Assembly: GCA_030696505.1 (NCBI GenBank)
Contig: JAUYSD010000237.1
Coordinates: 1-34,795 of the forward strand
Source: Sulfuritalea sp.
GTDB taxonomy: Bacteria > Pseudomonadota > Gammaproteobacteria > Burkholderiales > Rhodocyclaceae
Direction: 5' to 3'
Length of the DNA stretch: 34,795 nt
Part shown: one piece after another, positions 5,257 through 31,998 of the stretch
Layout of the letters: every line of letters starts with the position of its first letter
How positions within the stretch are numbered: position 1 is the stretch's first letter
Made by a program: the position numbers and the translations under genes
Notes under the pieces: generated by a model
What the model was told of the DNA's origin: nothing
Seen by the model: the letters and a program-made list of their open reading frames with translations, nothing else
The model's database searches: none

Positions 5257-5817
5257 CTACTTCTTGCGGCCGTACTTGCCGGTCAGCGTTGCCTTGCCGA
5301 TGGAATTGGCATTGATCATGAAGCCGGCCAGCGAAGCCGTCGCCCCGGCAGGCAGTTCGAGCTTGTCCACCTTGAGCGCGTGCAGCGTGAAGTTGTAGCG
5401 ATGCGGCTTGTCGCCGACCGGTGGGCAGGGGCCGCCCCAGCCGGGGCCGCCGAAGTCGGTGGCGATCTGCGCCGCACCCTTGGGCAGCGCCGAACCGTCG
5501 GCCTTGCCCGCACCCTTGGGCAGTTCCGCGGCATCGGCCGCAATGTTGGTCACCACCCAGTGCCACCAGCCGGCTCCGCCAGTCGGTGCGTCGGGGTCGT
5601 GCACCAGCAAGGCGAAGCTCTTGGTGCCCTTGGGCGCGCCGGACCATTTCAGGGCGGGCGAGATGTTCTTGCCGCTGCAGCCGAAACCCTGGAACACCTG
5701 CTCCTCGGCGATCGGCGCCGCGGCCTTGATGTCGTCGCTGCCGAGCTTGAATTTTTCGGCGTGGGCGCTGCCGGCCAGGGCCAGCCCCGCCGCAAGCAAC
5801 AGACCGTTACGGATCAT
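5257..5817 (-). CDS. YbhB/YbcL family Raf-kinase-inhibitor-like protein, exported
   Basis: This 186-residue protein has a 20-residue signal peptide (MIRNGLLLAAGLALAGSAHA), so it is expected in the periplasm. The mature protein carries the phosphatidylethanolamine-binding-protein fold motifs: HDPDAPTGGAGWWHWVVTNI, the DFGGPGWGGPCPPVGDKPHRY segment and a C-terminal LPAGAT strand. An AGGAG ribosome site sits seven bases before the ATG. The frame is open further upstream, but those residues are not conserved-looking and precede the signal peptide. The bacterial family has no firmly assigned role; small-ligand binding is suggested by the fold. It is monocistronic, with its own terminator. Confidence 0.9.
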   Translation of the reverse strand: MIRNGLLLAAGLALAGSAHAEKFKLGSDDIKAAAPIAEEQVFQGFGCSGKNISPALKWSGAPKGTKSFALLVHDPDAPTGGAGWWHWVVTNIAADAAELPKGAGKADGSALPKGAAQIATDFGGPGWGGPCPPVGDKPHRYNFTLHALKVDKLELPAGATASLAGFMINANSIGKATLTGKYGRKK

Positions 5818-5880
5818 GATGGCTCTCCTTTCTGAATGAGATGGAGCGCCGATTCTAGAAGCATTGGCGGCGAGGCCGTG

Positions 5881-5904
5881 AAAGTTGGCGCTGGCGATAC
5901 GGCG
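5881..5904 (+). repeat. Dispersed 24-base repeat, copy 1 (intergenic)
   Basis: This copy is identical to the consensus I derive from seven copies in the window: AAAGTY followed by GGCGCTGGCGATACGGCG. It lies between the divergent YbhB and DUF167 genes. Confidence 0.7.
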
Positions 5905-5930
5905 CTGCCGTCGTCTTTGCCGCAAAACCG

Positions 5931-6012
5931 GATACTCAGCCCATAATTCCGTCGCGGTGGCGATAAAGTCCTGCGGTCCGGCGGCTGCAAACCCAGGAAA
6001 GGGCTGAGTATC
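5931..6012 (+). other. Long-range 12-bp inverted repeat in the DUF167 leader
   Basis: GATACTCAGCCC at 5931-5942 is perfectly complementary to GGGCTGAGTATC at 6001-6012, enclosing 58 bases that contain GC-rich complementary patches. It ends 21 bases before the DUF167 start codon. If transcribed it would form a closed structured leader RNA. It does not match a riboswitch class that I recognise. It could instead be a paired-arm protein-binding site or the ends of a small decayed element. Confidence 0.5.
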
Positions 6013-6033
6013 AATCTTGCAAGGAAGGAACGA

Positions 6034-6372
6034 ATGCATGTCGGAGGCAAGGCGGCGCGCGAGGGATCGGCGATCGATTCGTTCTGCGCCTGGGATGGTG
6101 AAACCCTGGTGCTCAATATCCTGGGTCAGCCGGGCGCGAAGCGCGATGCGATCGGCAAGGTCAAGGGCAAGCAGCTCAAGGTCAGCGTCACCGCCGCGCC
6201 GGTGGCGGGCCGGGCCACCGATCACATGCTGCGCTTCCTGGCGGAGGAGTTCGGCGTGACAGTCAATGACATTCGAGTCGTGTTCGGCAGATTCAACGTC
6301 AACAAGCAGCTGCGCATCAAGTCGCCGGGAAAGCTGCCGCCGGTCGTCGGCAAGCATCTGGCGCAAGCATGA
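6034..6372 (+). CDS. DUF167/YggU family protein
   Basis: This 112-residue protein is of the DUF167 (UPF0235/YggU) family, a small alpha/beta fold. The hallmark QPGAKRDAIG near residue 32 and the LKVSVTAAPVAGRATDHMLRFLAEEFGV core are present. The usual family length is about 100 residues, with a slightly longer N-terminus here. An AAGGAAGGAA purine stretch precedes the ATG. Its function is unknown; the gene often sits near YggT in proteobacteria, but not here. It overlaps the following DUF2007 gene by four bases (ATGA), so the two are translated together. Confidence 0.9.
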   Translation: MHVGGKAAREGSAIDSFCAWDGETLVLNILGQPGAKRDAIGKVKGKQLKVSVTAAPVAGRATDHMLRFLAEEFGVTVNDIRVVFGRFNVNKQLRIKSPGKLPPVVGKHLAQA

Positions 6373-6641
6373 ACGCCGACTATGCCGGCGACTACGAGAT
6401 CGTCGCGCGCTTTCTCAATCCGACCGACGCCTACGTGCTGTGCTCCTGTCTGAAGATGGCCGGCGTTCCGGCGCTGGTAGCCGACGCGGAACTGGTGCAG
6501 ACGAATTCGCTTTGGGCCGTCGCACTCGGCGGCGCCAGGCTGCTGGTGCCCGCGCTGCATGTCGCCGAGGCGCGGGAAGTCATCGCCGCATTCAACCGCG
6601 GCGAGTACGCCCTGCCGGACGATGACGCAGCGGTGAAATAG
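6369..6641 (+). CDS. DUF2007 family putative signal-transducing protein
   Basis: This 90-residue protein matches the DUF2007 family: an N-terminal IVARFLNPTDAYVLCSCLKMAGVPALVADAEL helix-strand unit like a ferredoxin fold, and a C-terminal LLVPALHVAEAREVIAAF segment. Pfam describes the family as a putative signal transducing protein, without a demonstrated partner. It is coupled by a four-base overlap to DUF167. No signal peptide or membrane segment is present. The gene is followed by a hairpin whose T-run faces the opposite strand, so its own terminator is not obvious. Confidence 0.8.
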   Translation: MNADYAGDYEIVARFLNPTDAYVLCSCLKMAGVPALVADAELVQTNSLWAVALGGARLLVPALHVAEAREVIAAFNRGEYALPDDDAAVK

Positions 6642-6701: not shown

Positions 6702-8612
6702 TTACTTCGGCTGGAAGGCCATCGAGCGCGCCGAGATGGTGAAGGCATCGGAGAAGCACATACCTTCCTCGGCGCCCTGGTTCTTCAGCGTCGGGAAGAT
6801 CGCCTCGACCATTTTCACCGAGCCGCAGGCATAGATTTCGTGGCCCTTGAGGTCGGGGAAATCTTCCAGGATGGCTTCATGGACCAGGCCGGTGCGACCG
6901 GTCCAGTGGTCGCCCGGCGCGGCATCGGAGATCACCGGGATGAAATGGAAGTTGGCGTGCTCGCGCGCCCAGCTTTGCGGCAGTCCGGGCAGGTAGAGGT
7001 CGGCCAGTTGGCGCACGCCCCAGTAGAGGTAGATCGGACGCTTGAGGCCGCGCAAGAAGGCGTCCTCGACCATGCTCTTGACCGGGGCGAAGCCGGTGGC
7101 GCCGGCGACGAAGACGATCGGACGCTCCGATTCGCGCAGCGAGAAATCGCCCAGCGGGCCTTCGAAGTTGACGGCGTCGCCCTCCTTCATCCGCTCGAAG
7201 ACGTGGGTGGTGTAGCGCCCGCCCGGCATCAGGCGGATCTGCAGTTCGATCAGGTCGGACTGCTGCGGCGGATTGGCAAAGGAGAAGGCGCGGCGCTGGC
7301 CGTCGTCGAGGATGATGTTGATGTACTGGCCGGCCCTGAAGGGGATCTGCTGGCCCTGCGGCAATTGCAGCAGAACGCGCATCACGTCGTGGGTCAGCTT
7401 TTCCAGCTTCGCCACATGGGCGGTGTATTGACGGATGGCCGTCGCTGCGGCGGCCGCTTCGTATTCGATCTCGACGTCGCCCAGCGCCGTGGCGCAGCAC
7501 AGCAGCACCTTGCCGGCCGCGAGTTCCGCGGCCGACAGCGCGCTCGGCTGGTACAGCCCGGGATCGACGTTGCCGGAAAGCACGGTGCATTTGCACTGGC
7601 CGCAGCCGCCGTTGCGGCATTCGTAGGGCAGGTTGATTTCCTGGCGCAGGCCGGCATCGAGCAGGGTTTCGTCGAAGCGGATGGCGACCGCCCGGTGGTC
7701 GGGGTGGAAGGTCACCGTCGCCTCGGCCTTGCCCGCGCCCATGCGCTTGGGCGGCAGCCACGGGGCGAGGAACAGCAGGGCGGAGAGGCCCAGGATGCCG
7801 AACCAGAGGTAGATCGGATCGACGACATAGACCAGGGCCAGCACCGGCATCTGGAACCAGTCGATCGCGATATTGGTCGGCACCACCAGCATGTCGGCTT
7901 CGCCGCCCTGGCTCACCACCGGCTTGACCAGGGCCAGCACGATGAACATCGCGGTGAAGGCGATGGCGATCGCGCGCGGCGGGTTGACATGGGCACGCGG
8001 CACGCGCTGCACATGGACCCAGGCAATGACGCCGGCAATCAGCGGTGCGCCGAGGTGGATGAAGGCGAGCAGGGTGAACAGCCGGCTGGTGACGTTTTCC
8101 TGGTAGATGAAATTGCGGATCAGGGTGCCGTTGAACATCGGCAGCGCATCGAACCATTCCGCGGTGGCGACGACCACGAACTGCGCCAGCTTGTCCCACA
8201 CCAGCATGAAGCCGTTGAGGCCGGAGATGTAGACCAGCCAGATCAGCGCCACGCCGGTGGCCCAGGAGAACCAGCGGAAGCCGCGGTAACGGTCGTAGGC
8301 GAAGTGCCGCAGCATGTGCAGCAGCATGGTCAGGATCATGCCGTCGGTGGCATAGCGATGCACGCTGCGCATGATGCCGCCGGCCCACCACTGGTCGTGG
8401 GTGATGCTCTCGACCGATTCGTAGGCATCGTGCACGGCGGTATCGGCGAAGACATAAAGATAGATGCCGGTGCCGATCAGCAGCCAGAACTGCCAGAAGC
8501 TGATGGTGCCCAGATGGTAGAAGGGATTGAGCTTCTCGCCGAAGGCCGCGTTGAACAAGTTCTCCGCACGCATGAAGAACCAGCGCACGAGCTTTTGGAG
8601 GAGGGTCAGCAT
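6702..8612 (-). CDS. Cytochrome b - [2Fe-2S] ferredoxin - FAD/NAD(P)H reductase fusion
   Basis: This 636-residue three-part fusion has an N-terminal bc1/b6-type cytochrome b (residues 1-285) with two H-x13-H heme pairs: H85/H99 and H186/H200. A plant-type [2Fe-2S] domain (about 296-385) carries C332, C337, C340 and C372 or C373. A C-terminal ferredoxin reductase (about 390-636) has the FAD motif RAFSFANPP (441-449) and the nucleotide motif GATGFAP (504-510). The reductase half resembles CDP-6-deoxyglucoseen reductase and oxygenase reductases. The likely path is NAD(P)H to FAD to [2Fe-2S] to b hemes to quinone or an oxidase, or the reverse. It is the last gene of its operon, with AGGA about nine bases before the ATG. 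Confidence 0.85.
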   Translation of the reverse strand: MLTLLQKLVRWFFMRAENLFNAAFGEKLNPFYHLGTISFWQFWLLIGTGIYLYVFADTAVHDAYESVESITHDQWWAGGIMRSVHRYATDGMILTMLLHMLRHFAYDRYRGFRWFSWATGVALIWLVYISGLNGFMLVWDKLAQFVVVATAEWFDALPMFNGTLIRNFIYQENVTSRLFTLLAFIHLGAPLIAGVIAWVHVQRVPRAHVNPPRAIAIAFTAMFIVLALVKPVVSQGGEADMLVVPTNIAIDWFQMPVLALVYVVDPIYLWFGILGLSALLFLAPWLPPKRMGAGKAEATVTFHPDHRAVAIRFDETLLDAGLRQEINLPYECRNGGCGQCKCTVLSGNVDPGLYQPSALSAAELAAGKVLLCCATALGDVEIEYEAAAAATAIRQYTAHVAKLEKLTHDVMRVLLQLPQGQQIPFRAGQYINIILDDGQRRAFSFANPPQQSDLIELQIRLMPGGRYTTHVFERMKEGDAVNFEGPLGDFSLRESERPIVFVAGATGFAPVKSMVEDAFLRGLKRPIYLYWGVRQLADLYLPGLPQSWAREHANFHFIPVISDAAPGDHWTGRTGLVHEAILEDFPDLKGHEIYACGSVKMVEAIFPTLKNQGAEEGMCFSDAFTISARSMAFQPK

Positions 8613-8643
8613 GATGTGTGTCCTGGAGGTTCGGAGGGCGTGT

Positions 8644-9162
8644 TCAGAGTTTGTTCGCGGCGCTTTGCTGGAAGAACAGGCCGCCCTTGTCCGGATTGAA
8701 GTCGACCACCAGCACCTGCGCCGGCTTCAGCGTGACTTGTGCTTCCTTGATGAAGTTGAAACCCGGGTTGACCAGGTTGTCGTTCATTTTCACGGCCAGC
8801 TGGTAGGTTCCGGCCTTGACCTCGAAACGCTTGTAGACGGTGGATACGCCGTCGCGCGAGAGCCCGGTCGGATGCATCACGGTTTCGAACATCGACTTGC
8901 CGTCGAGTTCCAGCACCAGCTTGATGTCGGAACGCCCGCGCGGGCAGTCCAGCGGCGCGCGCATGTTGGGCGGCATCTTGGAAAGCTCCTCGGCAGTGCG
9001 CTTGCGGCAATCGCGCCCGCCGAGGTGGCTCATCGACAGCTTGATCAGCGCCACGTCGTCGGGAATCTGCTTGTACGTGGGCGCGGTCGAGAAATATCCG
9101 ATGAAGGCGGCGAAAGCGCCGTAAAGGACGATCTGGCCGGCGATGGCGGCGGGTTTAGGCAT
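8644..9162 (-). CDS. Membrane-anchored small protein of the cytochrome b operon, unknown
   Basis: This 172-residue protein has an N-terminal hydrophobic helix (about residues 8-25) without a convincing cleavage site, and should be anchored with the rest in the periplasm. The outer part has two cysteines, C52 in GGRDCRKR and C73 in PLDCPRGR, and a C-terminal beta-rich region ending FFQQSAANKL. I do not recognise a family. The ATG at 9162 follows AGGAG and overlaps the end of the upstream cytochrome b-MvhD gene by eight bases, indicating translational coupling. The frame is open further upstream but within that gene. It is probably a structural or maturation subunit of the cytochrome b complex. 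Confidence 0.75.
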   Translation of the reverse strand: MPKPAAIAGQIVLYGAFAAFIGYFSTAPTYKQIPDDVALIKLSMSHLGGRDCRKRTAEELSKMPPNMRAPLDCPRGRSDIKLVLELDGKSMFETVMHPTGLSRDGVSTVYKRFEVKAGTYQLAVKMNDNLVNPGFNFIKEAQVTLKPAQVLVVDFNPDKGGLFFQQSAANKL

Positions 9163-21032: not shown

Positions 21033-21109
21033 GGAGTGGTAGTTCAGTTGGTTAGAATACCGGCCTGTCACGCCGGGGGTCGCGGGTTCGAGTCCCGTCC
21101 ACTCCGCCA
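21033..21109 (+). tRNA. tRNA-Asp (GTC anticodon)
   Basis: This 77-base tRNA includes an encoded CCA. The acceptor arms GGAGTGG and CCACTCC pair fully, with G as the discriminator. The D-arm sequence is GTTCAGTTGGTTAGAAT, the anticodon loop is CTGTCAC (GTC at 21067-21069) and the T-arm contains GGTTCGAGTCC. It closely resembles bacterial tRNA-Asp. It sits at the left side of the defense cassette, but I found no duplicate of its 3' end at the right side. Confidence 0.98.
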
Positions 21110-21120
21110 AGCTTTCAGCG

Positions 21121-21163
21121 AAAACCCGTAAGCCTTCAAGGCCTTGCGGGTTTTTCGTTTTTA
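21121..21163 (+). terminator. Terminator after tRNA-Asp
   Basis: AACCCGTAAGCC pairs (with mismatches) with GGCCTTGCGGGTT around the loop TTCAA, followed by TTTTTCGTTTTT. It ends the tRNA transcript 12 bases after the CCA. Confidence 0.85.
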
Positions 21164-21196
21164 TCTTGCGCTCGGCACCGTCGCGGCATGCGAAAT

Positions 21197-21220
21197 CGCC
21201 GTATCGCCAGCGCCGACTCT
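21197..21220 (-). repeat. Dispersed 24-base repeat, copy 4 (left of the defense cassette)
   Basis: It matches the consensus at 23 of 24 positions on the minus strand. It lies in the roughly 340-base gene-free stretch 21110-21448, which otherwise holds the tRNA terminator and the antitoxin-remnant control region. It has the same orientation as the copy at 30349, on the other side of the cassette. Confidence 0.65.
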
Positions 21221-21380
21221 TCCAGAACCCCCGCGCGGGCCTGTTATGACCGGGCGACACTAAAAGCCAAATTTGAGTGCCTTCCAGCACCGCGAACAGG
21301 ACGCTCGGTAGCGGCTGGAAGAACCCCCGGTGGAATCGTGCCGGGCCATGTCTTGCCATGTCGGGTGGGGCAATATCTAT

Positions 21381-21411
21381 TTGGATTGTGTCAAGCATTA
21401 CAGTACATTAC
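21381..21411 (+). promoter_or_regulatory. Putative promoter/operator of antitoxin remnant and hsd operon
   Basis: A direct repeat CATTAC-N4-CATTAC (21396-21411, ten-base period) overlaps a TACATT -10-like element at 21404-21409, with weak TTGGAT 17 bases upstream. Ten-base-period repeats are typical ribbon-helix-helix operators. It is the only promoter-like sequence I find before hsdM. Confidence 0.4.
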
Positions 21412-21448
21412 GGCGCTTCCGCATGAACGTTGCACTAGAGGGACAGCA

Positions 21449-21541
21449 ATGACCACCACCCAGGCCGTCACACTGAATTTACGCATCGAACCGGGCGCGC
21501 TGTGTGTTGCAGGCCAGAAATCGGCGACGGGCAGGAAATAG
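21449..21541 (+). pseudogene. Truncated ribbon-helix-helix antitoxin-like gene (30 codons)
   Basis: A strong AGGGACAGCA ribosome site precedes ATG at 21449. The first codons read MTTTQAVTLNLRIEP, which resembles the N-terminal beta strand of Arc/CopG-type antitoxins that continue ALKEALR and a helix-turn-helix. After IEP the frame diverges (GALCVAGQKS) and stops at 21541, six bases before hsdM. The rest of the gene was apparently lost when the restriction cassette was joined here, which puts the left junction near 21490. I see no matching 3' half at the right end of the cassette. Confidence 0.55.
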
Positions 21542-21546
21542 AAAAA

Positions 21547-23529
21547 ATGGCGCTTTCGCTCAACAAACCCAAGCTCGACAATCTCGCCAACGAAATCTGG
21601 AAATCCGCCGAGCGTTTGCGCGGCAAGTTCAAGGCCTACGAGTACCAGAGCGTCATCCTGCCGATCATCGTCATCCGCCGGCTGGAGTGCGTGCTGCTCG
21701 CCTGGCGCGAGGCCAAGCGCGCCGAAGTGCTGGCCAAGCGGCCCAAGCTCACCGAGAAGGAACTCGCCAAGCTGGTCAAGGAACTTGAACTCAATCCCCA
21801 GCAGTCCCTCTTCTCGAACAAGACCAAATGGACATTGCGCCGTGTCTATGAGGAAGACCACACGCTGCTGGAAGAGAACTTCCGCGCCTACATCAACGGC
21901 TTCTCGAAGAACGTCGACGACATCATCGAACATTTCAACTACCGCGCCACCATAGGCACGATGGTGAAGAACAACCGGCTCGCGCCGATCCTGAATCAGT
22001 ACAAGGAGTTGGAACTCGGACCGAAACAGCTCTCCGGCCTGGAGATGGGCTACATCTACGAAGAGCTGCTGCGGCGTTTCTCGGAACAAAGCGGCGAGGA
22101 GGCTGGAGAACATTTCACCCCGCGCGAAGTCATCCGGCTGATGGTGGAGTTGCTCGACATCCCTATTCCCGAGCGTCACCTCTCGATCTATGACCCCGCC
22201 TGCGGCACAGGCGGCATGCTGTCGGTGGCCGAGGAACACCTGCTCGACCGCGCCGCCACTGCGGCGGAAAAAGCCCGCGTAGAGAAGTTCGTCACCGTCC
22301 ATGGGCAGGAGCTTTCGCCCACCAACTACGCCATCTGCCAGGCCGACCTGCTGATCAAGGACGATCGCCAGGCCAAGGTGTATCTCGGCAATTCGCTCAT
22401 CCCGCACGAGGCGCACAGCAAGGAGCCCGGCGACCAACTGCCCGAAACCAAGTTCCGCTTCGACTTCATGCTCAGCAACCCACCCTTCGGCGTCACCTGG
22501 GGCGGTAAGGATGGTTACGAGAAGGAAGCCCGGAAACTGGAGAAGACCCGCTACCGGGCCGGCATGCCGCGCATAAACGACGGTGCACTGCTGTTTCTGC
22601 AAACCATGCTGGGCAAGATGCAGGCTCCTGAGAAGGGTGGCAGCCGCATCGCCATCGTCTTCAACGGTTCGCCGCTCTCCAATGGCGATTGCGGCTCCGG
22701 GGAGAGCGAAATCCGCCGCTGGATACTGGAGAATGACTGGCTCGATGCCATCGTGATGTTGCCTGACCAGCTTTTCTACAACACCGGCATCTTTACCTAC
22801 ATCTGGCTGCTGCGAAACGAGAAGCCCGCCGGCCATCGCGGGCGCGTGATGCTGATCGACGCCCGCCAGCAGTTCGAGAAGGAGCCGAAAGCCTTCGGCA
22901 ACAAGCGCAACCGGATGACGGACACGCACCGGCAATGGATCGAGGAACGCTACCAAAAGGGCTGGAAGCCCCGCTTTGCCGTTGAGCAGGTGAAGATTTT
23001 CCGCATGCAGGATTTCGCGTTTCACAAGGTCAAGGTAGTCTTCTGGCAGACCGACGAGCACGACAAGCCGGCCATCGTCACCGAACCTTACGAGAAGGCC
23101 TTTACCGCCGCCAACCTCAAGAAGGAACAGGAGTTCCACGACAGCGATCTTACGTTCGACATTCGCGCAATGGTCGGCGCTGGCGAGACGGCGTTCACTC
23201 TGCATCTCACACCCAAGGACAATGCTGCGCAGAAGCTAAAGACCTTGCTGCCGAACGGCGCTTCGGTATTGGGCGTGCACTGGACGCATCGCCACTATGT
23301 GCAGGACGATGAATACATCCCGCACGGCGAGGACATCGCGGCCTTCCTGAAACGGGAAATCGCCAAGCCCATCATTCGATGGGAAGACAGTCCGCAACTT
23401 GGCTATGAAATCCTGCCGAACAAATACTTCTATCGCTACCAGCCGCCCACGCCCGCGAAGGAACTGCTGGCGGAGTTCTGGCGGCTGGAGAAGGAGGCGG
23501 AGGCGATGTTGGAAGGGTTGGCAAAATGA
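21547..23529 (+). CDS. hsdM: Type I restriction-modification DNA methyltransferase subunit
   Basis: This 660-residue N6-adenine methyltransferase has an N-terminal helical HsdM domain (about 1-150) and a catalytic core with the S-adenosylmethionine motif DPACGTGGM (near 215). The catalytic NPPFG (near 310) and a C-terminal extension beyond the usual 500-residue HsdM are present. It methylates host DNA with HsdS and forms the restriction complex with HsdR. The ATG at 21547 is chosen because the MALSLNKPKLDNLANEIWKSAERLRG start matches the family; 15 further upstream codons are in frame but belong to the antitoxin-remnant region. It overlaps hsdS by four bases. It contains one dispersed repeat copy near its C-terminal third. 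Confidence 0.96.
   Translation: MALSLNKPKLDNLANEIWKSAERLRGKFKAYEYQSVILPIIVIRRLECVLLAWREAKRAEVLAKRPKLTEKELAKLVKELELNPQQSLFSNKTKWTLRRVYEEDHTLLEENFRAYINGFSKNVDDIIEHFNYRATIGTMVKNNRLAPILNQYKELELGPKQLSGLEMGYIYEELLRRFSEQSGEEAGEHFTPREVIRLMVELLDIPIPERHLSIYDPACGTGGMLSVAEEHLLDRAATAAEKARVEKFVTVHGQELSPTNYAICQADLLIKDDRQAKVYLGNSLIPHEAHSKEPGDQLPETKFRFDFMLSNPPFGVTWGGKDGYEKEARKLEKTRYRAGMPRINDGALLFLQTMLGKMQAPEKGGSRIAIVFNGSPLSNGDCGSGESEIRRWILENDWLDAIVMLPDQLFYNTGIFTYIWLLRNEKPAGHRGRVMLIDARQQFEKEPKAFGNKRNRMTDTHRQWIEERYQKGWKPRFAVEQVKIFRMQDFAFHKVKVVFWQTDEHDKPAIVTEPYEKAFTAANLKKEQEFHDSDLTFDIRAMVGAGETAFTLHLTPKDNAAQKLKTLLPNGASVLGVHWTHRHYVQDDEYIPHGEDIAAFLKREIAKPIIRWEDSPQLGYEILPNKYFYRYQPPTPAKELLAEFWRLEKEAEAMLEGLAK
23170..23193 (+). 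repeat. Dispersed 24-base repeat, copy 5 (inside hsdM)
   Basis: It matches the consensus at 21 of 24 positions on the plus strand and is translated in frame as MVGAGETA within the C-terminal extension of HsdM. The peptide echoes VGAGDTA of the SCO protein. Confidence 0.45.
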
Positions 23530-24899
23530 GCGCAACCCAACCGCGCTCAGAGCTTGTGGCACACGCGGCTTGGCCCGTTGACCGGATTAAAGACCACGCA
23601 GGGAAGATTGGCAGTGGTGTTACGCCATCAGGCGGCGCGGCATCCTACCTTGACGATGGCATTCCTCTATTGCGAAGCCAAAACGTACATTTCGACGGTC
23701 TGCGGCTCGATGATGTCGCTTACATCGCCGAGGAAACGCACAATGAGATGAGCGGCTCAAAGCTACGCCCCCGCGATGTGCTGCTGAACATCACAGGAGC
23801 ATCAATCGGGCGTTGCGCATTCGTGCCAGACGACTTTGGCGAAGGGAACGTCAACCAGCATGTGTGCATCATTCGTCCAGCAGCGAGGCTCAACCACAAG
23901 TTCCTGACGTACTGCCTATCCGCCCCGTGGGGCCAAGACCAAGTCTTTGCCGGTTTCACGGGCGCGTCTCGCCAAGGCTTGGGGCAGCGCGACCTTGGGG
24001 AAATCCAAGTTCCACTGCCCCCTGTGCCCGAGCAACAGCGCATCGCGGCGTATCTGGATGCGGGTTGTGCGGCGATTGATGCAGCGGTAGCCGCCAAACG
24101 CCGCCAACTCGAAACCCTCGACGCGCTCCGCAAGTCCATTGTTTACCGCGCCGTCACGAAGGGTTTGAATCCTACCGCGCCAAGCCGTACCTCGGGCGTG
24201 GCGTGGTTCGGTGAGATCCCTCAGCACTGGCGCTGCGAACATCTCAAGCGTTTTAGCAAGCGTATTCAGGCCGGAATGACCCCGCCCACAAACACACCGG
24301 AGTACTATTTTGACGGCACTATTCCATGGTTCGCGCCCGGCAGTTTCAACGGCGATATTGACCTGCGGGAACCTCGCAAACTCATCAACGAACTCGCTCG
24401 AAGCGAAGGGGAGTTGCGGATTTTTCCCGCCGAGACGGTGTTTGTCATTGGAATCGGCGCCACCATTGGGAAAGTGGGCCTTGTGTCGGCAGAGGCGTCT
24501 TGTAATCAGCAACTCATTGGTATCGTGTGCGGTCATCGAATGCACAGCCGCTTCCTTGCCTACCAGTTCAAGATTTATGAGGATGTGATTCCCGGCATCG
24601 CGACGGCGACGACACTTCCGATTTTTGACCAAGTGAAGACTGGCAACCTCCCGACGCTTCAACCCCCCATCGATGAGCAAAGGTCCATCTGTGCGTTTCT
24701 GGACGCCAAGCTTGCCGAGTCGAAGAATATCGTTGCCTGTATCGAGCGGCAAATCGCCACCCTCACCGCCTACCGAAAGTCCCTGATCCACGAATGCGTT
24801 ACCGGCCAGCGGCGCATCACCGAGACGGAGGTGCGTCATACTATTGGCCGGATTGCCAAAACAACCGGCGCCGGTCAACGAGAAGATATCCATGCCTGA
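23526..24899 (+). CDS. hsdS: Type I restriction-modification specificity subunit
   Basis: This 457-residue HsdS has two target-recognition domains (about 15-165 and 225-375). They are separated and followed by conserved coiled-coil regions: VPEQQRIAAYLDAGCAAIDAAVAAKRRQLETLDALRKSIV in the middle and IDEQRSICAFLDAKLAESKNIVACIERQIATLTAYRKSLI at the end. The repeated halves are the classic layout for recognising a bipartite target. Its ATG overlaps the hsdM stop (ATGA) and its own end overlaps the ATPase gene by eight bases. The DNA target cannot be predicted from sequence alone. A short basic tail after the last coiled coil may come from fusion of spacer DNA. Confidence 0.95.
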   Translation: MSATQPRSELVAHAAWPVDRIKDHAGKIGSGVTPSGGAASYLDDGIPLLRSQNVHFDGLRLDDVAYIAEETHNEMSGSKLRPRDVLLNITGASIGRCAFVPDDFGEGNVNQHVCIIRPAARLNHKFLTYCLSAPWGQDQVFAGFTGASRQGLGQRDLGEIQVPLPPVPEQQRIAAYLDAGCAAIDAAVAAKRRQLETLDALRKSIVYRAVTKGLNPTAPSRTSGVAWFGEIPQHWRCEHLKRFSKRIQAGMTPPTNTPEYYFDGTIPWFAPGSFNGDIDLREPRKLINELARSEGELRIFPAETVFVIGIGATIGKVGLVSAEASCNQQLIGIVCGHRMHSRFLAYQFKIYEDVIPGIATATTLPIFDQVKTGNLPTLQPPIDEQRSICAFLDAKLAESKNIVACIERQIATLTAYRKSLIHECVTGQRRITETEVRHTIGRIAKTTGAGQREDIHA

Positions 24900-26001
24900 A
24901 CTCGACACTATCAGCGTCAAAGGCTTCAAGAGCATCGCTTCCATCGAGAAGTTGAAGCTTGGGGCGATCAACGTGGTCATCGGCCCGAACGGCTCCGGCA
25001 AGTCCAACTTCATCGGAGTGTTCTCCTTTTTGCATGCCATTCGCGAAGGTCACTTGCAGGACTATGTGATCAAGGCAGGCGGTGCAGACAAAGTGCTGCA
25101 CTTCGGAACGAAGGTAACGAAAAAGCTACAGATAAATGTTTCGTTCCAAGACGAGCGGAACCGGTACCAAATTGATCTGCAACCAACCGATGCCGACGAA
25201 CTCGTCCCGGACGTCGAGGTGGTCTATTTTTGGGACAAGGTGAGATACCCGACCAAACCCTATAGCGAGCTAATCCCGCGGGTCGGCAAAGAGGCAGGCA
25301 TCAGTGCACCAAAGTCCACAAAAATAGCCAGCTACGTTCGCGACCACCTCGACCGCTGGCGCCTCTATCATTTCCACGATACCAGCACGACTTCGCCGAT
25401 GAAAAAAACGGCGGATGTGAATGACAACCGCTATCTGCGTCCGGACGGCTCGAATCTGGCCGCATTTCTTTACTACCTGCGCGAGAAACATGAGGCTGCT
25501 TACAGCCTCATCCGGCGCACCGTGCAGCGAGTGGCCCCGTTCTTCGACGATTTTCAGTTGGAGCCGCAAAAGTTGAACCCGGAAAAGATCCGGCTGGAGT
25601 GGCGGCATAAGGGGTCAGATGCTTATTTTGACGCTCCTGCGCTATCGGACGGCACCTTGCGCTTCATTGCGCTGGCGACGTTGTTCCTGCAGCCCGAGAG
25701 CTATCGGCCATCGGTGATTCTGGTGGACGAACCGGAGTTGGGCTTGCATCCCTACGCCATTACCTTGCTGGCTTCACTGGTCAAGCAAGCCTCGGTTACC
25801 ACCCAGGTAATTATCTCCACGCAATCGCCGTTTTTGCTCGACCACTTCCAGCCAGAAGATGTGTTGGTGGCGGATCGGGTGGATGGAGGCACACAGTTCA
25901 CGCGGTTGGACCCAGCGAAATTGGACTCATGGTTGCAGGATTACAGTCTGGGCCAGCTCTGGGAGAAAAATGAACTGGGCGGTCGCCCAGGGGTCGAGTG
26001 A
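24892..26001 (+). CDS. AAA (AAA_21/OLD-like) ATPase inside the type I RM operon
   Basis: This 369-residue ABC-type ATPase of the RecF/SMC/OLD group has Walker A GPNGSGKSN (31-39), a signature-like ALSDGTLRFIAL segment, Walker B VILVDEPELGLHP (about 275-287) and an STQSPFLLDHF switch region. It has no nuclease domain of its own, but the next gene supplies a TOPRIM-like protein. Together they resemble the two-gene OLD/PARIS-type defense arrangement. The ATG at 24892, inside the hsdS end, is preferred because MPELDTISVKGFKSI is the family N-terminus. Base composition is more AT-rich than the flanking metabolic genes, suggesting transfer. The function is inferred, not shown. Confidence 0.85.
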   Translation: MPELDTISVKGFKSIASIEKLKLGAINVVIGPNGSGKSNFIGVFSFLHAIREGHLQDYVIKAGGADKVLHFGTKVTKKLQINVSFQDERNRYQIDLQPTDADELVPDVEVVYFWDKVRYPTKPYSELIPRVGKEAGISAPKSTKIASYVRDHLDRWRLYHFHDTSTTSPMKKTADVNDNRYLRPDGSNLAAFLYYLREKHEAAYSLIRRTVQRVAPFFDDFQLEPQKLNPEKIRLEWRHKGSDAYFDAPALSDGTLRFIALATLFLQPESYRPSVILVDEPELGLHPYAITLLASLVKQASVTTQVIISTQSPFLLDHFQPEDVLVADRVDGGTQFTRLDPAKLDSWLQDYSLGQLWEKNELGGRPGVE

Positions 26002-26005
26002 ACCC

Positions 26006-26698
26006 ATGTCCCGGTTGCTAATCCATGTTGAGGGTCAGACGGAGGAGGACTTCGTCAATGAGGTGCTGGCACCGCATCTGTACGGATGTGGCTACACGAA
26101 AGTCAGTGCCCGGCTAGTCGGCAATGCACGCCAGCGCGATCGGCGGGGCGGTATTCGCGCATGGAGTGCAGTGCGTAAGGATATTCTCCATCACCTGAAA
26201 GAGGATGCCGGTTGTCTTTCAACGACCATGGTGGATTTCTATGCGCTGCCCCAAACTGGCGACAGGGCATGGCCGGGCCGCGCGCAAGCAGCGCAACTGG
26301 CTTTTGCTGAAAAAGCCAAAGCGGTCGAAAGCGCGCTGTTCGCAGACATATGCAATGAGCTGGGTGCTGGCTTTGAGCAATGCCGTTTCGTCCCCTACGT
26401 CATGATGCATGAATTTGAGGGGCTGCTATTCAGTGACGCCGTAAAGCTTGGGCAAGGCATCGGCAGGCCCGATTTGTCGCCTAAATTCCAGGCGATCCGT
26501 GACGAGTTTGCGACTCCCGAGGAAATCAACGACTCGCCCCTCACTGCACCCTCCAAACGGATTTTGGATTTGTTTCCGCGATATGAAAAGCCGTTGATGG
26601 GAACCTTGGCCGTGCTTGCAATAGGACTCGATGCAATTCGGCAGCAATGTCCTTTATTTCGTGGCTGGATAGAACGACTGGAACAGTGGCCACAGTAG
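26006..26698 (+). CDS. DUF4276 (TOPRIM-like) protein paired with the ATPase
   Basis: This 230-residue protein carries the DUF4276 pattern: N-terminal LLIHVEGQTEEDFVNEVLAPHL with E9 and E13, RGGIRAWSAVRKDI, TTMVDFYALP (candidate acidic residue) and MMHEFEGLLFSD near 132-143. The EGxTE start and following acidic residues are what a TOPRIM nuclease fold would use to hold magnesium. It starts four bases after the ATPase stop and ends nine bases before hsdR, so it is an integral gene of the operon. I infer it is the effector nuclease of an ATPase-TOPRIM module; no activity is established for this family by what I can see. Confidence 0.85.
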   Translation: MSRLLIHVEGQTEEDFVNEVLAPHLYGCGYTKVSARLVGNARQRDRRGGIRAWSAVRKDILHHLKEDAGCLSTTMVDFYALPQTGDRAWPGRAQAAQLAFAEKAKAVESALFADICNELGAGFEQCRFVPYVMMHEFEGLLFSDAVKLGQGIGRPDLSPKFQAIRDEFATPEEINDSPLTAPSKRILDLFPRYEKPLMGTLAVLAIGLDAIRQQCPLFRGWIERLEQWPQ

Positions 26699-26707
26699 CT
26701 GCGTGAC

Positions 26708-29635
26708 ATGCCGAAGAAGCCACCAGAGATCACCTTTCAGAAGCACATCGCGGACTTTCTCATTCGTGAGCATGGCTATGGTGTGCTCGAACAATCGGAC
26801 ATCACGGACAGCGAACACAGCATCGCCGAAGACCAGCTATGGTCCTTCCTCAGGGTCACGCAGGCCGACTCACTCAAGAAGCTCACGGACGACTACGGCA
26901 CGGATGCGCGCGACGAGGTGTTCAAGGCGCTGCGACGAGAACTGGAACACACGCCGCTGTGGATGCTGCTGCGCCACGGCTTGAAGGTGCGCGGGCTGGA
27001 ACTGAGGCTCTATTACCCCAAGCCGCGCTCCGCCGAGAGCGCCTCCGTCCAGAAATTCGGAGAGAACCGCATTAGCTTTCGCCCGCATTTCTACTTCGGT
27101 GAAACCAATCAGGAGATTGATTTCGTCTTCTTCCTCAACGGCCTGCCCATCGTGGCGCTGGAGTTGAAGCACGAGAAGAACCAGACGGTCCATGACGCCG
27201 TGGCGCAGTTCGCGGCCCGCGACCATAGCCGTAGGATTTTCCAGCATCCCTTTCTCTACCTTGCCGCCGACACCAGCGACGTAAAGGCCGCGACCGATCC
27301 GCGCCGGGAGCAGAATTTCCGCTGGCACAACACCGGATTGACGAACACGTCCCAGACGGCGACCGAGTACCCAGTCGAGTTTCTCTATCGCGAGGTGCTT
27401 GCAAAGGATAGCTTGCTCGAAGCGCTGGCTTTCTTCCTCGTCCGCGTGCCCCAGCGCGATGCGGCGGACGACGTGCCGGAGCGCCCGGCCTTCACGCTGT
27501 TCCCGCGCTACCACCAGAGCCGTCTGGTGCGGAAGGTGGCCGACGATATCTCGGTGCACTTCGCCGCGAAGGCCGACATCGGCCGCAAGTATCTGGTCAA
27601 TCATTCCGCGGGCAGCGGCAAGACGCTGACCATCTGCTGGCTGGCGGACCGGCTGCACAGCCTGTTCAAGCCCGGCACGAGCGAGAAGCTGGTGGACCTG
27701 GTGTTCATCCTCACCGACCGCAAATCGCTCGATACGAACATCAAGGACGAAATTGAGAACTTCACGCACCTCAAGGATGTCGTCGGCCTGGCGCGCAAGG
27801 CTGAGGACCTGCCGCGCTTCCTGACGGGGCGCAAGCCGATCATCGTCACCACGCAGCAGAAGTTCGCCTGGGTACTGGAAGAGATCGAGAAGACCCCCGA
27901 ACTGAAGAAGCTCCGGGTCGCCTTCCTGATCGATGAAGCCCACCGCTCGCAGGAAGGCCAGATGGGCGCGGCCATCCGCTTGCCGTTCCGCTCAGATACC
28001 AAAGCTGCGGACGAACCGGATGCCGAGGCTCCCGAGCTGGACCCGCAAGAGCAACTCGCCAGGATCATCCGCGAGCATGACCTCAATCAGATGATCGTCG
28101 CGTTCACCGCCACGCCGGCGCCGGCCACCGTGAATCTGTTCGGCGAGGCGTTCGACACCTATTCCGAGGCCGAGGCCATCGCCGAAGGCTATATCGTCGA
28201 TGTCGCGGCCAGCATCATTTCCTACAAGACGCTCTACAACCTGCATTGCGCGGTTGTGCCCAAGCTGAATGAGGAGAAGCTCTATCCCAAGGGGATCGTA
28301 TCCAAGGCGCTGCAGAACGTGGCCTTCCAGGATGATGGCCTGATTCAGTACAAGGCCGAGGTGATGCTGCGCATCTTCGAGAAGGACGTGATGTCGCTGA
28401 TCGGCGGACGCGCCAAGGCGATGATCGTGACCAGCTCCCGCGTCGCCGGGCTGCGCTATTTCCAGATCATCACTGAGAAGCTCAAGGAGCGCGGCGCGGC
28501 CTACAAGGCGCTTTTTGCTTTTTCCGATTTCGTCCACCCGGGGACCAACGCTGCAATCAGCGAGTACGCGGTCAATGAGTTGAAGGACGGCGAGTTGATC
28601 GAGCAGCGATTCGAGGGCGACGACTACCGCCTGATGATCGTCGCCAACAAATTTCAGACCGGATTCGACCAGCCTTTGCTTGCCGGTATGTTCCTCGACA
28701 AGCCGGTGATGGATCGCAATGCCGTGCAGACACTGTCGCGACTGAACCGCTGTCACGAGGGCAAGGATCGTGTTGTCGTGGTGGATTTCACCAATAACGC
28801 CAAGACGATTCTCAAGGCATTCGTCAAATACCGAAAAGGCACGCCCTTCGAGCCGGAAGAGCCGGATCAGGATCTCTGCCCGAGATTGCATGCCGAGATT
28901 CTGGCGGCAGGGGTGTTCACGCCGAAGGATGCCGTTGATCTTGCCAAGCTGCTCGCGACCGGCACGGATGCCCAGGTACAGTTCTCGGTCAACGCGCTGC
29001 GGATTCGCTTTCAGGCGAGACTCATCGACCCGGAAGCACGCAAGGAATTCGTTTATCTGCTCGCCCGCTTCGTCAAGAGCTTTCACTTCCTCACCTGCTT
29101 TTTCAGCTTTGCACCGCAGATCAAGGGGTTCGCCACGTTTGCCGATTACGTCGGCCCGCAACTCATCAAGGCAGGCAGTGTGTCCGATCTGATGAAGCAG
29201 ATTCGCCAGACGGAAGTCATCAAGGCCGCCGTTGAATACCAGGGCGTCGAAACTGGCGGCGGCACGGTCAAACTCAAACCGGGTACGGGAAAGAAGAGTT
29301 CTGGCCCGCCCCCGAAGAAGGTATCCATTCAGGACATGATCGCGGAGATCCAGGCCAGGTTCGAAATCAGCGATGAGGAAGCGCTCTACATCAAGCAGGT
29401 CACGGAGGAGAAAGCCGCCGACCCGGTGATTCGGAGTACGGTCACCGATCACCGCGACGACAGCATTTATCTTGAAGGCGCTTATCGCGGGCAGGTTAAT
29501 GGCGAGATTCAGGCCGCCTACGATGTGCGAGGACGCTACGAAGAACTGTCGGATCTCAAGTACACCGACACCGGGGGTATCTTCGACATCATGGCAGTCA
29601 CGGTGATTCAGCACCATCTCTCAGTTGCGACATAG
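26708..29635 (+). CDS. hsdR: Type I restriction endonuclease subunit R
   Basis: This 975-residue HsdR has an N-terminal PD-(D/E)xK nuclease with EIDFVFFLNGLPIVALELKHEK at about 136-157 (D138 and the E-x-K pair). A superfamily 2 translocase follows, with Walker A in NHSAGSGKT (about 297-305), DEAH near 408 and the motif VAFTATPAP. A C-terminal HsdM-interaction region completes it. It cuts unmodified DNA after ATP-driven translocation. The length is usual for the family. It follows the DUF4276 gene by nine bases, so the ATPase-TOPRIM genes split the normal hsdS-hsdR adjacency. Confidence 0.96.
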   Translation: MPKKPPEITFQKHIADFLIREHGYGVLEQSDITDSEHSIAEDQLWSFLRVTQADSLKKLTDDYGTDARDEVFKALRRELEHTPLWMLLRHGLKVRGLELRLYYPKPRSAESASVQKFGENRISFRPHFYFGETNQEIDFVFFLNGLPIVALELKHEKNQTVHDAVAQFAARDHSRRIFQHPFLYLAADTSDVKAATDPRREQNFRWHNTGLTNTSQTATEYPVEFLYREVLAKDSLLEALAFFLVRVPQRDAADDVPERPAFTLFPRYHQSRLVRKVADDISVHFAAKADIGRKYLVNHSAGSGKTLTICWLADRLHSLFKPGTSEKLVDLVFILTDRKSLDTNIKDEIENFTHLKDVVGLARKAEDLPRFLTGRKPIIVTTQQKFAWVLEEIEKTPELKKLRVAFLIDEAHRSQEGQMGAAIRLPFRSDTKAADEPDAEAPELDPQEQLARIIREHDLNQMIVAFTATPAPATVNLFGEAFDTYSEAEAIAEGYIVDVAASIISYKTLYNLHCAVVPKLNEEKLYPKGIVSKALQNVAFQDDGLIQYKAEVMLRIFEKDVMSLIGGRAKAMIVTSSRVAGLRYFQIITEKLKERGAAYKALFAFSDFVHPGTNAAISEYAVNELKDGELIEQRFEGDDYRLMIVANKFQTGFDQPLLAGMFLDKPVMDRNAVQTLSRLNRCHEGKDRVVVVDFTNNAKTILKAFVKYRKGTPFEPEEPDQDLCPRLHAEILAAGVFTPKDAVDLAKLLATGTDAQVQFSVNALRIRFQARLIDPEARKEFVYLLARFVKSFHFLTCFFSFAPQIKGFATFADYVGPQLIKAGSVSDLMKQIRQTEVIKAAVEYQGVETGGGTVKLKPGTGKKSSGPPPKKVSIQDMIAEIQARFEISDEEALYIKQVTEEKAADPVIRSTVTDHRDDSIYLEGAYRGQVNGEIQAAYDVRGRYEELSDLKYTDTGGIFDIMAVTVIQHHLSVAT

Positions 29636-29639
29636 GGCC

Positions 29640-30302
29640 ATGAGCAAAACTATCGCACAGATGCAAGAAGTCGACCGACCGCGCGAGAAGCTGTTGCGGA
29701 AAGGCGCGGCAGCCTTGAGTGATCGGGAGCTGCTGGCGGTTCTGCTGGGGAAAGGCACGCCGGGGATGGATGTCATGACCCTTGCCGGAAAGCTGGCGCG
29801 ACTGATCGACGAGAAGGGTCTGGAAGTTAAAGCCGAAGACCTGACGCAGTTTGAAGGCGTTGGCGATGCCAAGGCCACCCTGATTCTCGCGGCAATCGAG
29901 TTCGCTCGGCGACGTATCAAGCCGGAAGGCGCAAAGATCGAAACCCCGGCGGACCTGCTGCCGCACGTTTGGCACTATGCCGACCGGAAGCAGGAGCACT
30001 TTCTTTGCGCCAGCATCAACGGCGCAAATGAAATCCTGAACATCCGCGTGGTTTCGATTGGCTTGATCGATCGGAGTCCGGTTCATCCGCGCGAAGTCTT
30101 CGCCGATGCGCTGGTTGACCGGGCGTCGGCGGTCATCGTCGCCCACAACCATCCAAGCGGGAGCCTTGAACCTTCACCGAGCGATATCAACATTACTGCC
30201 CAACTCAAGGCCGCTGGCGAAATCGTTGGTATCGAACTGCTGGATCACATCATCTTCAATCGTACCGGTTACTTCAGCTTTCTGGAGGCAGGGCGACTGT
30301 GA
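29640..30302 (+). CDS. radC: RadC family protein with JAB/MPN domain
   Basis: This 220-residue RadC homolog has an N-terminal helix-hairpin-helix-like part (ALSDRELLAVLLGKGTPG and FEGVGDAKATLILAAIEF, residues 20-90). A JAMM metalloprotease-like domain carries HNHPSG-x7-SD (near 160-174). The ATG lies six bases after the hsdR stop, so it is co-transcribed with the restriction genes. RadC's old DNA-repair role is doubtful; the family is common on mobile elements and in defense loci. This copy is probably the accessory or last cargo gene of the cassette rather than the housekeeping radC, which normally sits elsewhere. Confidence 0.92.
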   Translation: MSKTIAQMQEVDRPREKLLRKGAAALSDRELLAVLLGKGTPGMDVMTLAGKLARLIDEKGLEVKAEDLTQFEGVGDAKATLILAAIEFARRRIKPEGAKIETPADLLPHVWHYADRKQEHFLCASINGANEILNIRVVSIGLIDRSPVHPREVFADALVDRASAVIVAHNHPSGSLEPSPSDINITAQLKAAGEIVGIELLDHIIFNRTGYFSFLEAGRL

Positions 30303-30348
30303 GGGGAGCGTGCATGAGGCTGCGCCATGGTTTCGAACGGAATCAGAA

Positions 30349-30372
30349 CGCCGTGCCGCCAGCGCCGACTCT
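30349..30372 (-). repeat. Dispersed 24-base repeat, copy 6 (right of the defense cassette)
   Basis: It matches the consensus at 21 of 24 positions on the minus strand, in the 139-base gap between radC and the FAD oxidase. It differs from the left-flank copy at 21197 at two positions. Confidence 0.6.
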
Positions 30373-30407
30373 CGAATTCGATGTGAATTTGTACTTCTGG
30401 CGCGAGG

Positions 30408-30413
30408 TAATAT
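30408..30413 (+). promoter_or_regulatory. Candidate -10 element for the FAD-oxidase operon
   Basis: TAATAT lies 29 bases before the proposed TTG start. It is the only AT-rich element in this gap; the -35 region is not convincing. Confidence 0.3.
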
Positions 30414-30441
30414 TCGCCCCACACCCAACAGGATTCATCGC

Positions 30442-31998
30442 TTGAACATTCCTCCCGTTGAACCCGGCACCGTCGGCCCCTGCCCGGTAGCCCCCGATGC
30501 GCTGCAGGGCATCAAGCGCCAGCAGACCAATCCGGCGCGCTGGAACGGCGCCGGTTGGCAGGCTTTCGTCGCCGATCTGCGCACTGCCGGCGTCGAACTT
30601 GCCGAGAGCAGGGCCGCCTGCGGCGCGTATGCCACCGATGCCGGCGGCACCGCTTACGGCCAGCCGCATGGCGTGGCGATCGCGCGCAGCGCCGGCGAGG
30701 TCGCGGCACTGCTGAGGACGGCGCAGGCGCATCGGGTGCCGGTCACGGTGCGCGGCGGCGGCCTGACCACCGAAGGCGAATCGGTGGCCTACGGTGGCGT
30801 GCTGCTCGACATGACCGGCATGAGCCGGGTGCTGGCGATCGATGCGACGGCGCTGACGGTGCGCGTCGAGGCCGGCATCTACTGGCACAGCCTGGCCGAG
30901 GAACTGCGCCGCGAGAAGCTGGACTACCTGTCGGCGCCGCTCAACCTGACCTCCTCGGTGGGCGGCACGCTGGGCGTCGGCGGCATCGACGTGAATTCGG
31001 CGCGGCTCGGCTGCAGCGCCGATCAGGCGCTGTCGCTGCAGGTGGTGACGCCGACCGGCGAGATCGTCGAGTGCTCGGATACCGAAAATGTCGAGCTGTT
31101 CCAGCGCGTGATCCTCGGCTACGGCCAGTTCGGCGTGATTACCGAGGCGACGCTGCGGGTGCGGCCCTATACGCCGCTCTCGATGCACTATTACTACTAT
31201 TCCTCGCTGCGCACCGCGATCGAGGATTTGCAGATGCTCGACCGCAACGATGCCAGCGACTACTCGGGCATCCTGACCATCATGGATTGCGCGGTGAACC
31301 TGCTGGTCGCCTTCGACTCGGACGAGCGCGAGGCGGCCTTCCGCAGGGACTGGGAAGCGCGCCTGCGCGGCCATGGCGAGTTCGGCTTCGCGCTGTGCAT
31401 GCTCGGGCACTACGCCCTGCGCCCCTGGAAGGCGGGCGAGGCGCTCTACCTGCTCAAGCGCAAGCAGGCGGTGTTCCCCGAGTTCCGCCGGCCCGAGTAC
31501 ATGCGCGACAACAAGATGCACGACCGCAGCGTGGTGTTTTCGCGCGCGGTATGGAAGCACTGGGGCTCGCGCAACATGGTGATCCCCGATCTGGCGACGC
31601 CGGCCGACAAGTTCGTCGCAGCCGTGGAGCGCGGCAATGCGGTGTGCCGCAAATTCTTTGCCCATTACACGCTGTATTGCGTCGGCATCAAGCTGCGGCC
31701 CGAGCACCGGCCGCACTACGAAATGTCCTGCGTGCCGCCGGACGCGGAAGGCTGGGCCTATGGCTGCGAGTTCGAGCCGATGATCGAGGGCGAGGTCTAT
31801 AGCCGCGACCATTTCCAGGCCTTCAAGAACGCCATCTACGACATCGGCGTCGATCTGGGCGCCAGCTATTACCGCTTCGGCGGCATGATGAAAGGCTATA
31901 TCCGGCGCACCTTCGGCGACGAACTGGTGGACAAGCATCTCGCCATGAAACGCCGCGCCGATCCGGCCATGATCCTCAACCGCGACGTGATTTTCTGA
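30442..31998 (+). CDS. FAD-binding (PCMH/GlcD-type) oxidoreductase
   Basis: This 518-residue flavoprotein has an FAD_binding_4 domain from about residue 70 to 250: HGVAIARSAGEVAALLRTAQAHRVPVTVRGGGLTTEG, then LSAPLNLTSSVGGTLGVGGID. The C-terminal substrate-binding part has no standard GlcD tail that I recognise. The TTG at 30442 is chosen because AGGA lies eight bases upstream and the frame before it runs into radC. It overlaps the [4Fe-4S] gene by one base (TGATG), so the two probably form an oxidase that hands electrons through iron-sulfur clusters to the membrane, as in glycolate or lactate oxidases. The substrate is unknown. Confidence 0.85.
   Translation: MNIPPVEPGTVGPCPVAPDALQGIKRQQTNPARWNGAGWQAFVADLRTAGVELAESRAACGAYATDAGGTAYGQPHGVAIARSAGEVAALLRTAQAHRVPVTVRGGGLTTEGESVAYGGVLLDMTGMSRVLAIDATALTVRVEAGIYWHSLAEELRREKLDYLSAPLNLTSSVGGTLGVGGIDVNSARLGCSADQALSLQVVTPTGEIVECSDTENVELFQRVILGYGQFGVITEATLRVRPYTPLSMHYYYYSSLRTAIEDLQMLDRNDASDYSGILTIMDCAVNLLVAFDSDEREAAFRRDWEARLRGHGEFGFALCMLGHYALRPWKAGEALYLLKRKQAVFPEFRRPEYMRDNKMHDRSVVFSRAVWKHWGSRNMVIPDLATPADKFVAAVERGNAVCRKFFAHYTLYCVGIKLRPEHRPHYEMSCVPPDAEGWAYGCEFEPMIEGEVYSRDHFQAFKNAIYDIGVDLGASYYRFGGMMKGYIRRTFGDELVDKHLAMKRRADPAMILNRDVIF

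Follow-up and report, generated by a model that had tools for sequence, protein, structure and literature searches.

An ATPase-DUF4276 gene pair between hsdS and hsdR of a Sulfuritalea type I restriction operon matches a catalogued candidate defence cassette

Introduction

The Rlo genes of Campylobacter jejuni are accessory genes inside hsd operons. Here we describe a two-gene pair, encoding an OLD-like ABC ATPase and a DUF4276 protein, that lies between hsdS and hsdR in a type I restriction operon of Sulfuritalea sp. (contig JAUYSD010000237.1 of assembly GCA_030696505.1, 34,795 nucleotides, analysed over its whole length and referred to below as the window). Both proteins match models of the PADLOC system HEC-01, and we consider it likely that the pair is an autonomous defence cassette occupying the hsdS-hsdR cargo slot of an apparently acquired type I module.

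Several described systems bear on this pair. The tRNA nuclease PrrC, also encoded inside an hsd operon, is held in check by the restriction enzyme EcoprrI and activated when EcoprrI is inhibited (reviewed in PMC12707154). Defence genes likewise lie between hsd genes in the RRDM island of enteropathogenic Escherichia coli, with DarTG2 (PMC12255303), and in VPI-2 of Vibrio cholerae, with TgvAB (PMC11411939), although the effectors of both differ from that studied here; the former source proposes a slot in the hsd operon as a site for defence cargo and describes DarTG families as giving anti-phage defence, and the latter describes protection by TgvAB without the restriction activity of HsdR. The detection rule for PARIS (AriA plus AriB) calls for an AAA_15 or AAA_21 ATPase with a DUF4435 (PF14491) partner, and according to Rousset et al. 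PARIS works without EcoKI, guarding of EcoKI being ruled out (both PMC9122126); its response is described as ending in tRNA cutting (PMC12409363). OLD proteins are reported to cut DNA, and classes 1-3 to join ATPase and TOPRIM in one polypeptide (PMC10568477), while OLD-TOPRIM modules have been proposed as backup effectors in BREX (PMC12839542). Finally, the Hma-embedded candidates (HECs) were introduced in a 2024 preprint by Payne et al., in whose experiments several of them, HEC-06 by name, were active, as related in PMC12988326; HECs have also been counted in Pseudomonas aeruginosa (PMC10855318).

Results

The ATPase of the window matched HEC-01A (PDLC04175, PADLOC-DB v2.0.0) with an E-value of 1.6e-144 (479.4 bits, residues 3-366 on positions 5-362 of 363), and the DUF4276 protein matched HEC-01B (PDLC04188) with 1.9e-71 (residues 1-228 on 12-226 of 230). 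By these nearly full-length matches the pair is an already catalogued candidate defence cassette, which overturns the view of the first-pass annotation, made from the sequence alone, that the arrangement is not a named system. It differs from HEC-01 in being embedded in a type I operon rather than in Hma. The openly licensed literature searched did not mention 'DUF4276', nor 'HEC-01' together with 'PADLOC'.

To place the pair in context, 110 DUF4276 loci were compared: 45 close kin retrieved by scanning for exact peptides of the window protein, 59 from a phylum-level sample and 6 of the 12 records from plasmids. In the phylum sample PF14103 was found at E <=0.001 in 65 of 398 genomes (59 above the curated cut-off); 60 of the 133 places other than the window's were fetched, nearly all from the stronger half, and one (L153) was dropped as having no open reading frame that covers the match. 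The ATPase gene lies upstream on the same strand as the DUF4276 gene at 106 of the 110 loci, and three of the four loci lacking it (L053, L072 and L138) are at contig edges, L064 having no such explanation. The ATPase and DUF4276 genes are therefore a nearly obligate pair.

Restriction genes stand within two genes of the pair at 19 of the 110 loci, and type I genes at only 10 (11 by label, the neighbour at L040 being a type-ISP methylase); 12 loci have no visible upstream gene and 5 no downstream gene. Neighbours were labelled by means of home-made profiles that started from window, EcoKI and plasmid genes, so that these figures undercount restriction genes (one methylase of L038, for example). 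Restriction genes make up 25 of the 203 genes at positions +/-1, against 1 of 250 at a distance of six or more genes, and every labelled neighbouring restriction gene is on the strand of the pair. Restriction genes are thus strongly enriched beside the pair, yet most copies are seen elsewhere, and the pair was seen mostly away from type I loci, an outcome that the first-pass annotation had itself named as refuting its proposal. On a 94-row tree the type I label requires 8 changes, at least 6 of them forced by starred branches; shuffled labels needed 9.7 on average and as few as 8 in 19 of 500 shuffles. The placement of one locus, L134, near long branches of this tree is unsure.

The individual contexts are diverse. 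The pair is found inside a type III mod-pair-res operon on plasmid pHX3 of Aeromonas veronii, with a DrmD-like helicase and a methylase on an A. media plasmid, in a helicase-methylase-pair-Mrr row in Ideonella, and in the orders hsdR-hsdM-pair-hsdS (L074), hsdR-pair (L133) and pair-hsdR, the last with a distant DUF4276 (L134). On plasmids of Piscirickettsia (L175) and Acinetobacter (L176) it stands alone with no neighbouring hsd gene. The pair has been placed repeatedly and independently in restriction and non-restriction operons.

Some further arrangements were observed. At L038 (1774-12335) the surroundings are of the housekeeping kind: the pair and N6_N4 methylase genes lie between two genes for NADH-quinone oxidoreductase-type subunits, as though a nuo operon had received a restriction module. 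In six Caldilineaceae loci (L043, L048, L054, L055, L057 and L059) the pair is apparently at one chromosomal place, its neighbours being of matching lengths; the pair may therefore also be inherited vertically without restriction genes. L062 has a 322-residue protein between hsdS and the pair (5405-6373), which gave no match in Pfam (E <=0.001) or PADLOC (E <=1e-10).

An insertion with clear empty sites was found in genome G249 (L125/L185), where the pair separates the two halves of a split methionine synthase gene (metH). The genus was represented by 19 genomes including G249; in two of them (G249 and G781) the aligned halves lie about 1.8 kb apart, and in the other 17 they are separated by 29-74 bases. 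In a DNA alignment, a 1.85-kb insert (L185 1700-3553) replaces the 71-base spacer of L181, and the insert of G781 is the same as that of G249, at 93% identity. The two-gene unit can thus enter an operon unrelated to restriction.

The reverse comparison started from HsdR, which was searched for in four genome samples that overlap one another, drawn at the level of the phylum (398 genomes), order (399), class (369) and family (150). The slot survey took in 37 loci, namely all 36 HsdR matches of the phylum sample other than the window and that of G415; 36 of them have an upstream hsdS in the fetched DNA. The hsdS-hsdR gap exceeds 500 bases at 30 of these 36, and the part of the cargo that was scanned contains DarTG, PtuB-type proteins with an ATPase, IetAS, GmrSD, Schlafen-AlbA, Fic and PDC-S11. 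The DUF4276 label appeared in none of these slots, and in the phylum sample no PF14103 place besides the window's coincided with an HsdR place.

HsdR relatives of the window's own hsd type were found in G415 (91% identical over 902 residues), G1202 (78%), G1265 (64%) and G1162 (63%); the class sample yielded none, a search of viral contigs found no relative, and a search of plasmids found none at E <=1e-100. None of the four carries the pair in the slot: the slot of G1202 is empty, those of G1265 and G1162 hold zeta-toxin-like kinases, and that of G415 (L077) encodes a Gp49-like protein, presumably HigB-like, and a helix-turn-helix (HTH) protein, together presumably HigBA-like. The DNA similarity between L077 and the window ends at window position 24814 within hsdS and returns at 26706, just before hsdR. 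L077 carries tandem type I systems, the first made up of hsdM-hsdS, an IrrE-like/DUF4411 pair and its own hsdR, the second of an hsdS remnant, the Gp49-like/HTH pair, a window-type hsdR and radC; the gap measured for L077 in the survey belongs to its other hsd system, and the counterpart of the window's slot was examined separately. At the G1202 locus (L190) an IS200-type Y1 transposase lies between hsdM and hsdS (8406-8906).

The layout of the window recurs, as far as the contigs reach, at six loci (L031, L034, L036, L037, L044 and L073) ranging from Limnohabitans to metagenome-assembled genomes of Chloroflexi and Desulfosarcina. Their HsdR proteins are 73-83% identical to that of the window, whereas four of the loci have an HsdS of only 33-44% identity; having been found through DUF4276, these loci are no measure of how frequent the pair is in this hsd type. 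The four loci found through HsdR do bear on that frequency, and the pair is absent from all of them. Judged from these sequences, one lineage has kept pair and hsd genes together over wide transfer. L032, with a DUF4276 protein 83% identical to that of the window, has no hsd gene in 20.7 kb, the pair lying between genes for an ammonium transporter and an AlkB-like (2OG-Fe(II) oxygenase) protein, and L033 and L035 (81% identical) have no hsd gene on their short contigs. The pair and the hsd genes dissociate both ways.

In the window itself, hsdM, hsdS, the ATPase gene, the DUF4276 gene, hsdR and radC form a row on one strand (Table 1) with junctions of -4, -8, 4, 9 and 4 bases. The ATPase gene starts 8 bases inside hsdS, 4 bases separate it from the DUF4276 gene and 9 bases separate the latter from hsdR; the gene order, coordinates and spacings of the first-pass annotation were exact. 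The ATPase and DUF4276 proteins are encoded by two open reading frames, with a stop codon at 25999-26001 and a new start at 26006. The genes from hsdM to radC have a G+C content of 55-59%, against 64.5% and 67.0% in the flanks of the window, and because of this contrast and of the start of the row 437 bases after a tRNA-Asp gene, the type I module looks like an acquired island. A scan of 21110-30600 for regulatory sites gave 1 promoter-like site (2.7 in shuffled sequence) and 8 terminator-like sites (9.7), no excess in either case.

The family matches of the operon genes are, at the sequence level, far beyond chance: AAA_21 (3.3e-38, 132.9 bits) and AAA_15 (53.7 bits) in the ATPase, PF14103 (5.8e-47) in the DUF4276 protein, N6_Mtase (1.6e-57) in HsdM, Methylase_S (2e-18) in HsdS, and RadC (1.3e-38). 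HsdR matched TIGR00348 at 2.1e-61 with 208 bits, below the model cut-off of 284.55, and HSDR_N at 5.8e-9.

The ATPase has an SMC/Rad50-head ABC fold, nearest to SMC/Rad50 and to PtuA of Septu and retrons, and the DUF4276 protein has a TOPRIM-like fold with the OLD C-terminus as its top match, in agreement with the OLD-like ATPase and TOPRIM-like partner of the first-pass annotation. At the level of sequence, the DUF4276 profile matched neither PDB sequences nor a putative OLD protein of an Aeromonas plasmid, annotated as ATP-dependent endonuclease, and a phmmer search of PDB with the DUF4276 protein returned a single match with an E-value of 0.3.

Conserved residues were read from alignments of 32 sequences, which for DUF4276 comprise the window and 31 of the 45 close-kin loci; L054, with Asp at position 9, was left out. 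The ATPase signature S252-G254 is invariant, as are the acidic residues E9, E13, D77, E136 and E138 of DUF4276. From the usual TOPRIM topology, we take D77-F-Y79 to stand at the place of the DxD motif, the second Asp being replaced by Tyr. Against five relatives, the ATPase gene has a ratio of nonsynonymous to synonymous substitution rates of 0.04-0.09 and the DUF4276 gene one of 0.03-0.08, rough values with synonymous sites near saturation; purifying selection acts on both genes.

Table 1. Positions of genes, motifs and the cargo interval in the window
Feature	Coordinates	Strand	Remarks
tRNA-Asp gene	21033-21109		437 bases before hsdM
hsdM, type I DNA methyltransferase subunit, 660 amino acids (aa)	21547..23529	+	HsdM_N, N6_Mtase; PADLOC MTase_I 1.2e-177
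hsdS, specificity subunit, 457 aa	23526..24899	+	Methylase_S; PADLOC Specificity_I 5.3e-96
Cargo interval containing the pair	24815..26705		DNA similarity break against L077
ABC/OLD-like ATPase of the pair, 369 aa, PADLOC HEC-01A	24892..26001	+	
Walker A, GPNGSGKS	24982..25005	+	ATPase translation; G31, N33, G34, G36, K37, S38 invariant in 32 sequences
Walker B region, VILVDEPELGLHP	25714..25752	+	ATPase translation; D279 to P287 invariant in 32 sequences
DUF4276 protein, 230 aa, PADLOC HEC-01B	26006..26698	+	TOPRIM-like fold, putative nuclease effector
EGQTEE, candidate TOPRIM motif 1 after strand 1	26030..26047	+	E9, E13, E14 invariant in 32 sequences
D77-F-Y79, end of strand of residues 70-77	26234..26242	+	D77, Y79 invariant in 32 sequences
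HEFE	26408..26419	+	E136, F137, E138 invariant in 32 sequences; H135 nearly
hsdR, restriction and translocation subunit, 975 aa	26708..29635	+	TIGR00348, HSDR_N
radC-like gene	29640..30302	+	RadC; also behind window-type hsdR in L037, L044, L073, L077

Discussion

The pair resembles several described systems in part. Its ATPase is of a family named in the PARIS rule, but DUF4435 was not found, PF14103 being the only family in the DUF4276 protein at E <=0.1, and the best AriA model scored 125.6 bits against the ATPase, far below HEC-01A; membership in PARIS was rejected for want of DUF4435. RloA/RloB was rejected too, as no match to an RloB-like partner, a family we take to be PF13707, was seen at E <=0.1. 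OLD nucleases, Gabija GajA and the OLD protein of retron Eco8 are single polypeptides, whereas the pair consists of two genes, and no sequence-level link from these proteins to DUF4276 was found. With PrrC the pair shares its position inside an hsd operon, but no such tie to a restriction enzyme was seen.

An autonomous cassette is favoured because pair and hsd genes dissociate, the slot holds varied cargo, the pair has entered metH, restriction genes are enriched around it, and its operon contrasts in G+C content with the flanks. Because the catalogued cassette is also found in many other places, it probably rides in the operon rather than guarding the restriction enzyme. The ATPase, assembled with ATP bound, would keep the DUF4276 nuclease inactive until infection provides a cue, such as DNA ends, a replication intermediate or a DNA mimic made by the phage; the nuclease, once freed or activated, would cut tRNA or DNA and so abort the infection. 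Such a cassette would need no physical contact with HsdMSR, and the slot may offer it ready-made co-transcription and the cell a second layer when restriction fails.

What the ATPase senses is the subject of two further proposals. A Rad50-like ATPase might, as has been suggested for some OLD-like systems, detect phage DNA ends or replication forms, with a nuclease that cuts DNA. The nearness of the ATPase fold to SMC/Rad50 and PtuA and the best match of DUF4276 to the C-terminus of the DNA-cutting OLD proteins speak for this proposal, which we consider less likely than not; against it, SMC and Rad50 would top any ABC search, and PARIS, of the same general kind, cuts tRNA, the fold not revealing the substrate. 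Doubtful, although possible, is a PARIS-like sensor in which the ATPase recognises anti-restriction DNA mimics such as Ocr and ArdA, frees the TOPRIM nuclease and backs up any restriction system while guarding none. Such a direct response would explain the enrichment of restriction genes, but the lack of a DUF4435 match, the distance to AriA and the majority of copies not seen beside restriction genes speak against it. Rather unlikely in our view is its extension to a general restriction-backup module, PARIS-like with another TOPRIM effector and direct sensing of phage anti-restriction proteins, that selection has repeatedly set down between the genes for modification and those for restriction, in type I and type III operons as well as in other restriction operons.

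The first-pass annotation had instead seen the pair as a guard of HsdMSR, merging PrrC-type guarding with PARIS-type sensing; its premise that PrrC is silenced by its own enzyme agrees with the review cited above, but PARIS is not silenced by a restriction enzyme (PMC9122126). On an obligate, PrrC-like guard, the intact type I enzyme would hold the pair inactive and its blockage would fire it. The PrrC precedent, the tight embedding and the one lineage with an identical layout over several phyla fit such a guard, but a PrrC-type element would be expected only or mainly with a type I enzyme, and 100 of the 110 pairs show no type I gene within two genes, the closest relatives found by HsdR search do without the pair, and copies without neighbouring hsd genes occur on plasmids and in metH, though there the host chromosome could supply the enzyme in trans. 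The context counts, the two-way dissociation and the metH insertion led us to reject guarding as the leading reading, and we regard it as very improbable. Still harder to credit is that the pair encodes extra subunits of HsdMSR, serving it as nuclease or motor: its position between the specificity and restriction genes would suit that role, but HsdR has its usual domains, the pair is also met by itself on plasmids and within a type III operon, and close hsd operons lacking it led to the rejection of this reading. Less far-fetched, yet quite unlikely, is a toxin-antitoxin-like hitchhiker, maintained by addiction or simply carried along in operons, whose role against phages is small; the toxin-like genes among other slot occupants (Gp49-like, zeta-like, DarTG, Fic) and the metH insertion suit it, the restriction-gene enrichment does not, and DarTG families are themselves described as anti-phage (PMC12255303).

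Overall the earlier interpretation is partly supported: anti-restriction sensing of the PARIS kind is possible and guarding of HsdMSR unlikely, and an attractive guess has been narrowed to a testable hypothesis. Neither the candidate pair nor the kind of slot that it occupies is new. DUF4276 is common and, in the loci read, mostly belongs to a two-gene unit with an ATPase that is able to enter ready-made operons, a housekeeping operon with clear empty sites among them. Of the readings left, the most interesting is that the pair would respond directly to anti-restriction proteins, as PARIS does; if the backup module were real, a restriction enzyme and the countermeasure to its inhibitor would share one transcript. 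The pair lends itself well to two questions: whether anti-restriction proteins are sensed by an ATPase-TOPRIM pair of the OLD type, and why so many toxins and defence genes gather in the gap between hsdS and hsdR.

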